From Thermoplasmata archaeon (GTDB lineage Archaea > Thermoplasmatota > Thermoplasmata > Lutacidiplasmatales > UBA184), in the NCBI GenBank assembly GCA_021816865.1, contig JAKAWX010000004.1:62001-126000 (forward strand): DNA of 64,000 bases, written 5' to 3'. This document shows, in pieces, positions 3,972-6,266 of this stretch. A model generated the notes under the pieces. It was not told where the DNA came from. It worked only from the letters and a program-made list of their open reading frames with translations, and did no database searches. The translations under genes were made by a program, and so were the position numbers. The first letter of the stretch is position 1; each line of letters starts with the position of its first letter.

Positions 3972-5348
3972 GTGGGTATCAAGAGGAGCCGGGAGCCTCG
4001 AGCCGAGGTGAACTCGCGCCCCCGCGGTGGAACCTCCCCGAGTCCCTACGCGCTCCTCGTCCGCAATCCCGCGTACCTGCGGGTCTTCGTGGCGGGCCTC
4101 GGGTCGGTCGCGGGGTCGGCGATCGCGGGCGTCTGCCTCGTCTGGATCGTCTACGCGTCGACCGACTCGCCGTTCGACGTCGCGCTGCTCGGCACCGCGG
4201 CCCTCGCCGGAGCGATCCCGTTCAGCGTCTTCGGGGGCGCGTGGGTCGACCGCTACGACCGCCGTCGCCTGATGATCGGCTCGGATTTCTCGCGAGCGCT
4301 CGCGCTCGGACTCGTCGCCGCGGACCTCGCCTTCCGGGAGTTCGACCTCCTTCCGATCCTCGCCGCCTACTTCGTCCTCGGAGCGTTCACGACCGTCTTC
4401 AACCCCGCGGAGCAGGCGATTGTCCCGTCGCTCGTGGAGGTCTCCGAGGTCGCGGCCGCGAACGGCCTCGTCCGCTCGAGCCGCTCCGCGCTCTCGTTCG
4501 TAGGGGCGTCCGTAGCCGGGGCGCTGATCGTCACGGTGGGACCGACCGCGGGCGTCGTGGCGAACGCGCTTACGTTCCTCCTCTCGGGGATCCTGCTCGT
4601 CGGGCTCCGGGTCCCCTCTCGGGCGGCCGCGGTCCAGGCGGCGACCCGGAAGCGGCCCGGCTACTTCACCGACATCGTCGAGGGATTCCGATGGCTCGTC
4701 CGGGCCCGGGGGTTCTTCCAGCTAACGATCTCGGCGACGTTCTTCAACTTCTGCTCGGCGATCGTCTCGACGTTCCTCGTGGTCTTCTCGGGCCTCGTCC
4801 TCCACGGCTCGGCGCTCGTCTTCGCGCTCCTCCTCGCGGTCGAGGTGGTCGGCACCGGCCTCGGCGCCCTCCTGGTCGGCCCGACGCGCGCGGTGCGCTG
4901 GGCGGGCCGGGCCTGGGTCGTGCCGTACGGGGTGGTCTCGGGGGCCGTGGTCCTCGTCCTCGCCCTCTTCCCGAGCGTGCCCGTCGCCTTCGGGGCCCTC
5001 TTCGCCCTGGGTCTCCTCGGGGGGTATGCCGGGACCGCGTGGCTCACCGCCGCCCAGCTCCTCGTCCCGTCAGAACTGCAGGGACGCTACTTCGGCATCG
5101 ACAACCTGGGCAGCGTCGCGATCCTACCGGTCGCCCAGATCGGGGGAGCCTTCCTCGTCGAAGGGGCCGGCATCCGCACGGCCTACCTCGCGACCGCGGT
5201 CGTCTGGGTCGTGGTCGGGCTCGTCTTTCTGGTCCCCCGCGCCCTCCGCGACCTCGGTCACCGGCCTCCGGAAGGTTCGGCTACTCTCCGTAGCGGCGCC
5301 GACGCATCTGGAAGGCCCGGATCGCCCGAAGGAACTCGAGACGGGTGA
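3972..5348 (+). CDS. MFS transporter
   Basis: Multi-TM ORF: YALLVRNPAYLRVFVAGLGSVAGSAIAGVCLVWIVYASTDSPFDVALLGTAALAGAIPFSVFGGAWVDRYDRRRLM. Confidence 0.85.
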   Translation: MGIKRSREPRAEVNSRPRGGTSPSPYALLVRNPAYLRVFVAGLGSVAGSAIAGVCLVWIVYASTDSPFDVALLGTAALAGAIPFSVFGGAWVDRYDRRRLMIGSDFSRALALGLVAADLAFREFDLLPILAAYFVLGAFTTVFNPAEQAIVPSLVEVSEVAAANGLVRSSRSALSFVGASVAGALIVTVGPTAGVVANALTFLLSGILLVGLRVPSRAAAVQAATRKRPGYFTDIVEGFRWLVRARGFFQLTISATFFNFCSAIVSTFLVVFSGLVLHGSALVFALLLAVEVVGTGLGALLVGPTRAVRWAGRAWVVPYGVVSGAVVLVLALFPSVPVAFGALFALGLLGGYAGTAWLTAAQLLVPSELQGRYFGIDNLGSVAILPVAQIGGAFLVEGAGIRTAYLATAVVWVVVGLVFLVPRALRDLGHRPPEGSATLRSGADASGRPGSPEGTRDG

Positions 5349-6096
5349 GCCCCGGCCAGAGGACGTCCGAGAAGTAGAGCTCGCTGTACGCCGACTGCCA
5401 GAGCAGGAAGTTCGACACGCGCTCCTCACCGCTCGTCCGGAAGATGAGGTCGGGGTCCGGAAGGTCCTTCGTGTAGAGGTGGCGGGCGACCGCCTCCGAA
5501 TCGATCGACTCCGGCGTGATCCGCCCGTCGCGCACCTCGCGCGCGAGCGCCCGGATCGCCTCGACGATCTCGTCGCGACCGCCGTACCCGAGCGCGACGT
5601 TGTAGCGGTAGTTCGAGTAAGTGGCGGTGGCGGATTCGGCGACGTCGATCGCCTCGCGGACCCGCGCAGGCAAGAGCGCTCGATTCCCGATCACGCGGAC
5701 GCGGATGCCGTGGCGGTGGACCCGCTCGTCGACCGCAATCTGCCGCAGGGCTCGATCGAAGAGGTCCATGAGCGCCTCGAGCTCCTCCTTCGGTCGGGAG
5801 AGGTTCTCGGTCGAGAGGGCGTACACGGTCAGGATCCGGATGTTGAGGTCGAGGCACCAATCGAGCAGCTCCTCGAGCGTGTCCCGGCCCTTGGCGTGCC
5901 CGTCCTTTACGTCGATCCCCTTCTCGCGGGCGAAGCGGCGGTTGCCGTCCATGATGATCGCGAGGTGGCGGGGCACCGGGTCGGCGCGCACGAGCTCGAG
6001 CAGTCGCTTCTCGGTAAGCCCCCGGAGCGCGTCGCCGACGGCGTGCGAGAGGTACGTCGACCCCCCTTCCTCCTTCGACGACTCCTCCTCGCCCAC
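5281..6096 (-). CDS. uppS: Cis-prenyl diphosphate synthase (undecaprenyl/polyprenyl diphosphate synthase)
   Basis: VPRHLAIIMDGNRRFAREKGIDVKDGHAKG ... LTVYALSTENLSRPKEELEALM ... ALGYGGRDEIVEA ... PDLIFRTSGEERVSNFLLWQSAYSELYFSDVLWP. Start GTG 6096 chosen because an AT box (CTATTAAC) lies about 25 nt upstream; the ORF track extends to 6132. Confidence 0.93.
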   Translation of the reverse strand: MGEEESSKEEGGSTYLSHAVGDALRGLTEKRLLELVRADPVPRHLAIIMDGNRRFAREKGIDVKDGHAKGRDTLEELLDWCLDLNIRILTVYALSTENLSRPKEELEALMDLFDRALRQIAVDERVHRHGIRVRVIGNRALLPARVREAIDVAESATATYSNYRYNVALGYGGRDEIVEAIRALAREVRDGRITPESIDSEAVARHLYTKDLPDPDLIFRTSGEERVSNFLLWQSAYSELYFSDVLWPGLTRLEFLRAIRAFQMRRRRYGE

Positions 6097-6162
6097 GACC
6101 CAAGAAGCGACGCCGAGAGTTAATAGGTCCACGGGGCCGGCGCTCGCGCCCGGCCGGGGAGG

Positions 6163-6266
6163 CGCCCTGGTCGGGAGTTCCGGGTCGGGGGGCGGACCCC
6201 CGACACCTTCGAACCCGAGTCGCAGGCTCGACAGACCTACATCCTAGACCACTAGACTACCAGGGC
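6163..6266 (-). tRNA. tRNA-Asp(GUC) with a 31-nt intron in the T-loop (position 59/60; intron 6177-6207)
   Basis: Acceptor GCCCTGG (6266-6260)/CCAGGGC (6170-6164); D-arm GTCT-AGTGGTCTA-GGAT; anticodon arm TAGGT-CTGTCGA-GCCTG; T-stem TCGGG/CCCGA. Removing the intron gives loop TTCGAAT and a 73-nt mature tRNA including discriminator G. Confidence 0.9.

Follow-up and report, generated by a model that had tools for sequence, protein, structure and literature searches.

The window analyzed here, a stretch of 64,000 nucleotides of contig JAKAWX010000004.1 from a Thermoplasmata archaeon living in soil or acid water, carries a single-copy tRNA-Asp(GUC) gene on the minus strand at positions 6266-6163, interrupted by an intron of 31 nt (6207-6177) between A59 and T60. 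Read along that strand, the gene runs GCCCTGG TA GTCT...GGAT G TAGGT CTGTCGA GCCTG CGAC TCGGG TTCGAA, then the intron GGTGTCGGGGGTCCGCCCCCCGACCCGGAAC, then T CCCGA CCAGGGC G. Exon 1 (positions 1-59 of the tRNA; 6266-6208) is near-identical in 22 relatives and was matched in 50 of 57 family genomes, most of the alignments ending at nucleotide 59, and exon 2 (6176-6163) comprises T60, the 3′ strands of the T-stem and the acceptor stem, and the discriminator G73. The acceptor stem GCCCTGG/CCAGGGC and the T-stem TCGGG/CCCGA can be read directly, with a loop of 38 nt between the T-stem strands. Removal of the intron leaves a 73-nt tRNA-Asp(GUC) with the T-loop TTCGAAT, as in a canonical mature tRNA, and the predicted splice junction across 59/60 would read TTCGAATCCC. 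A preliminary description of this DNA had proposed a tRNA-Asp(GUC) with a T-loop intron at 6207-6177, and both the identity and the boundaries hold. Neither ARAGORN nor Rfam, at default settings, reported the gene at 6266-6163.

A possible TATA box, TTGATA (minus strand, 6299-6294), lies 28 nt upstream of the tRNA gene; it was recognized by eye only, without statistics, as was a TTCATA-like element about 28 nt upstream in most relatives. The adjoining gene, uppS (minus strand, 5281-6132), belongs to the undecaprenyl diphosphate synthase family (PF01255, E=3.6e-79) and serves as a syntenic anchor: in most relatives tRNA-Asp immediately precedes uppS, and in two (L039 and L046) it lies about 2.2 kb upstream. 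Close matches in a uppS protein search were almost all to MAGs labelled Thermoplasmata, among them UBA184, AcS5-34, and SubAcS15-67, which Sheridan et al. 2022 (PMC9287336) placed in Ca. Lutacidiplasmatales. The genome belongs to this order of Thermoplasmatota.

The bulge-helix-bulge (BHB) model put forward for this intron in the preliminary description survives comparison, and the strict motif is possible in all 22 aligned sequences. The T-stem forms the outer helix h, its 5′ strand TCGGG (6218-6214) pairing with its 3′ strand CCCGA (6175-6171) in invariant pairs throughout the alignment. The central helix joins TTCG (T54-G57; 6213-6210), which is 100% paired in the 22 sequences, to CGGA (6182-6179), replaced by CGAA in 8 of them (U-G to U-A). 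It is flanked by a 5′ bulge AA/G (6209-6207), with the predicted cut between 6208 and 6207, and a 3′ bulge AC/T (6178-6176), with the predicted cut between 6177 and 6176. The intron hairpin (6206-6183) provides the inner helix h′; relatives show compensatory changes in it, and 7 of 9 pairs are changed on both sides. The 104-mer precursor folds with z = -3.34 versus shuffles, and a strict hBHBh′ could be drawn for 22/22 sequences, by constraint in most of them; it is the unconstrained energy minimum in three relatives. Free-energy folding alone shifts the pairing slightly for most sequences and draws G60 (6207) into the intron hairpin. With a central helix of about 4 bp and a 3-nt bulge at each junction in all aligned sequences, and with both outer helices present, the tRNA-Asp motif, as judged from sequence, is a strict hBHBh′ that uses the T-stem as an outer helix; only its position is unusual, not the motif, and no motif relaxation would be needed for it to be cut.

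The exons of tRNA-Asp are near-identical across genera, and the 22 relatives carry an insertion of 28-33 nt at the identical site, which answers the earlier call for a comparison of related genomes. The intron sequence itself varies, strong constraint falling only on the bases that form the BHB. Among the cells of this alignment, 90% pair, compared to 84% in shuffles and no more than 71.5% in slid registers; 29 cells are changed on both sides, and the covariation score was reached by none of 500 shuffles. Could this nevertheless be a decayed gene or pseudogene, with translation served by another tRNA-Asp? With the genome only 83% complete, a copy might have been missed in this assembly alone. 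A search with the spliced sequence matched only the split gene in this genome, and none of the 50 family genomes that yielded a tRNA-Asp match (of 57 searched), one of them 100% complete, showed an intron-free copy; in the remaining 7, nothing matched at the E-value cutoff. The intact tRNA-Asp elsewhere that would have refuted the preliminary description was thus found neither here nor in the matched family genomes. Together with the near-identity of the exons across genera, this largely refutes the pseudogene explanation, to which we give next to no credence. Long BLAST matches in three genomes (G067, G041, and G284) seemed to be intronless tRNA-Asp genes and were rejected, since they contain introns starting with T.

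Targeted searches revealed that the tRNA-Asp intron has company. T-loop introns at 59/60 occur in 11 of the 30 tRNA genes detected here, about a third, tRNA-Asp included; the other 10 interrupt Glu-CTC, Arg-TCT, Arg-TCG, Gly-TCC, Ser-GCT, Ser-GGA, Ser-CGA, Lys-TTT, His-GTG, and Ala-GGC, and excision gives a TTCRAAT loop in each. They were sought with the pattern RGTTCRAA plus stem pairing, without a BHB criterion, supplemented by two poorly matched Rfam hits, and 8 of the 10 came from the search in which the BHB played no part. The survey consists of targeted searches and short stretches of a genome of 1.54 Mb, 83% complete. A standard Rfam search of the genome picked up just 2 of the 11 tRNAs with T-loop introns, both with wrong 3′ ends.

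Introns at other positions are also present: D-loop introns in iMet and Lys-TTT, and anticodon-loop introns in Leu-TAA and Trp-CCA. tRNA-Lys(TTT) has both D-loop and T-loop introns in three families of the order (L185, L245, L248, and L257). A tRNA-Cys(GCA) gene at a contig end (L020:1-111, G000:C10 end) appears, by inspection, to contain a D-loop intron whose central pairing is GTAGC/GCTGC. The insertion in the anticodon loop of tRNA-Trp(CCA) (L154; G000:C6:77612-78112) is long, and long insertions of this kind nest a box C/D RNA in other archaea. Position 33 of tRNA is a near-universal U; tRNA-Gly(TCC) has a C there, in the loop CCTCCAA, both in this genome (L186; G000:C8, minus strand) and in G001 (L236), and the G028 homologue reads CTTCCAA.

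A register test over 110 T-loop introns bears on whether these insertions are removed. In 85 introns the 4-mer located three bases ahead of C61 forms 4 bp with TTCR, and in 110/110 it forms at least 3 bp, while no other register gave more than 6 full pairings with TTCR; T60 is present in 110/110 and A58A59 in 109/110. The RNA model used to sample other genomes includes the central helix, so the test is biased for genomes sampled that way; it is unbiased for the 21 syntenic tRNA-Asp genes of relatives and for the non-Asp introns of this genome. The hairpin might instead be retained as a permanent extension of the T-loop, a possibility kept alive by its stability when folded alone and by the absence of RNA data. 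Such retention would leave unexplained the fixed AA/N and NN/T junctions, the invariant T60, and the TTCR pairing in a single register. An extended T-loop would disrupt the elbow formed by the D-loop and T-loop, and an EndA that looks active (activity being inferred from its sequence) is present. We consider retention of the hairpin highly improbable. Several A57-type introns, for example those of Glu-CTC, Arg-TCT, and the three Ser tRNAs, have only three central base pairs.

The preliminary description concerned one gene, which is real; the phenomenon is far wider, affecting roughly one third of the detected tRNA genes and extending through much of the phylum. With the RNA model, 13 T-loop introns were counted in a congener that is 100% complete (G001) and at least 12, all those examined, in a genome of another genus (G028), and for the most part it is the same tRNAs that are affected. 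At E <= 1e-10 the model gave 7 to 12 matches per genome in family f1 and mostly 0 to 5 in other families of the class. At least 3 T-loop introns occur in family f2. Family f3 (G003) has many of only 13-15 nt, often beside a second intron, in which the inner helix is by inspection apparently absent, so that they resemble relaxed hBH motifs. These short introns and the A57-type introns, in which position 57 is unpaired, imply that the motif may be relaxed in some genes. In family f7, an Arg-TCT T-loop intron is present in five genomes, several of them single-contig; the EndA of this family was compared with the T. acidophilum chain and is not that chain. Across other Thermoplasmatota families, f7 among them, 39 of 40 further regions contain a T-loop intron (20/20 in one set and 19/20 in another); these regions were chosen as long matches and give evidence of breadth, not frequency. 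Most of the genomes compared are metagenome assemblies. T-loop introns are spread through Thermoplasmatota and reach their greatest extent in the order of Ca. Lutacidiplasmatales.

How might so many tRNA genes have come to carry introns at the same site? In one genome outside the class (G211; L328, L329, and L330), the T-loop introns of tRNA-Asp, Glu, and Arg-CCT are 82-94% identical, with none of 300 shuffles as good, a similarity suggestive of recent copying between tRNA genes. Intron copying between tRNA genes has been reported for Thermoproteales, to go by a title cited in PMC3218864. Within the present genome, no clear similarity was detected between introns of different tRNAs beyond a weak resemblance of Ser-GCT and Ser-GGA, and a plasmid search gave no match.

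The type of splicing endonuclease, left to be identified by the preliminary description, is a two-repeat alpha'2 EndA without a CSL or ASL loop. One EndA ORF was found in this genome (L101:1462-2520), in which PF02778 and PF01974 each match two stretches in an alpha'2 layout, and alignment with the A. fulgidus enzyme places the retained catalytic Tyr, His, and Lys in the second repeat, as the alpha'2 type requires. Broad specificity of EndA has been tied to a CSL or ASL loop (Hirata 2019, PMC6379350; 2025 structure paper, PMC12397907). No CSL-like insertion lies between the YG and LSL motifs of the catalytic repeat in 17 Thermoplasmata EndA proteins, although one is present in 3P1Y (A. fulgidus plus CSL construct), and the place of the ASL in our alignment was inferred from the reported ASL-CSL superposition (PMC6379350). 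These Thermoplasmata enzymes thus lack the lysine-bearing CSL/ASL loop of broad-specificity EndA. The earlier suggestion of a tolerant endonuclease needs refinement: the tRNA-Asp motif is strict, and the enzyme is of the alpha'2 type without that loop.

An alternative is that splicing requires a second, unseen subunit or a different enzyme rather than the alpha'2 EndA alone. Enzymes known for broad specificity are of the (alpha-beta)2 or epsilon2 type and bear CSL or ASL loops (PMC6379350, PMC12397907), and the central helix is weak in several of the present introns. Against this, nearly all of the 77 genomes of the order with an EndA match have exactly two matches in one ORF, and a stand-alone subunit is absent in nearly all of them; strict BHBs like that of tRNA-Asp should suit an alpha'2 enzyme, and there is a report of homodimeric EndA cutting BHL-like motifs (PMC8707768), likewise for A. 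fulgidus (PMC6379350). A missing subunit or another enzyme therefore appears improbable to us. A conserved basic loop, PRGG...K...YW, occurs in the N-terminal repeat of Thermoplasmata EndA and is absent in A. fulgidus, G104, and G092; its link to EndA specificity is speculative, and a T-loop intron occurs in G092, whose EndA lacks the loop. It is possible, though we hold it only tentatively, that the alpha'2 EndA of Thermoplasmatota came to accept a broader range of substrates by a route other than CSL/ASL, for example the PRGG...K...YW loop, allowing introns to enter the T-loops of one third of the tRNAs in Lutacidiplasmatales, including the minimal relaxed introns of 13-15 nt in the sister family and the recently copied introns elsewhere in the phylum.

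Parts of this picture are familiar from other archaea. Like Thermoproteales and Thaumarchaeota, the present genome has BHB-type introns outside the anticodon loop, in many tRNA genes, some of them interrupted more than once (PMC8450103, PMC4033280); unlike theirs, which is (alpha-beta)2, with the CSL reported for crenarchaeal enzymes, the EndA here is a loop-less alpha'2 enzyme, and position 59/60 prevails among the non-canonical introns detected in this genome. Korarchaeum cryptofilum shares the combination of a two-repeat alpha2 EndA and non-canonical introns, but its EndA reportedly carries a specific loop in common with (alpha-beta)2 enzymes (PMC4033280), which the aligned Thermoplasmata enzymes lack. 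The Asgard Atabeyarchaeia and Freyarchaeia are likewise soil archaea with most of their tRNAs interrupted, often at non-canonical positions, but they belong to an unrelated phylum, and the part of that account available to us reports no 59/60 concentration (PMC11291895). Elongator tRNA-Met of T. acidophilum, from the same phylum, also pairs a BHB intron with an alpha'2 EndA (PMC4307237, PMC6379350), but that intron is in the anticodon loop and the tRNA-Asp intron in the T-loop. No description of T-loop introns in this clade was found in the open literature; subscription papers (Marck and Grosjean 2003) and GtRNAdb were outside our scope. What is new is the scale of the T-loop introns together with the enzyme type; the 59/60 position itself was already known.

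The observation of a T-loop intron in tRNA-Asp is confirmed and its earlier interpretation supported, RNA evidence of splicing being the missing piece. We put at roughly 0.93 the probability that the tRNA-Asp(GUC) gene is genuine and functional and that its 59/60 insertion is a BHB intron spliced by the alpha'2 EndA; cleavage, ligation, and expression are inferred. In the nascent pre-tRNA, the T-stem would serve as outer helix, T54-G57 would pair with CGGA near the 3′ end of the intron, and the intron hairpin would be the inner helix. The single EndA, acting as a two-repeat alpha'2 homodimer, is predicted to cut past the second base of each 3-nt bulge (AA/G and AC/T), and a tRNA ligase would then join the exons and restore the 7-nt T-loop. 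Archaeal tRNA ligase is of the RtcB type. The elbow of the unspliced tRNA could not form normally, so that T-loop modification, and probably end processing too, should come after splicing. For the wider set, the best reading is likewise of real EndA-spliced introns, their splicing inferred, at a known position in an unexpected and extensive clade.

Reviews associate non-canonical tRNA introns with (alpha-beta)2 or epsilon2 endonucleases bearing an additional lysine loop, and credit euryarchaeal alpha'2 lineages with nothing but single introns at the canonical position. For the euryarchaeal alpha'2 and alpha4 lineages, two of them give canonical introns only, the loop-bearing Korarchaeum being the sole alpha2 exception (Yoshihisa 2014, PMC4090602; 2014 tRNA gene diversity review, PMC4033280). 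Phylum-wide T-loop introns alongside a loop-less alpha'2 EndA contradict this canonical-only rule, a conflict softened by the cutting of BHL-like motifs by homodimeric EndA (PMC8707768), and they offer natural test substrates. Since Rfam reports just 2 of the 11 interrupted tRNAs, standard searches give the false impression that such genomes have incomplete tRNA sets. Culturable species exist in Thermoplasmatota, in which it could be tested in what order splicing, T-loop modification, and end processing take place.
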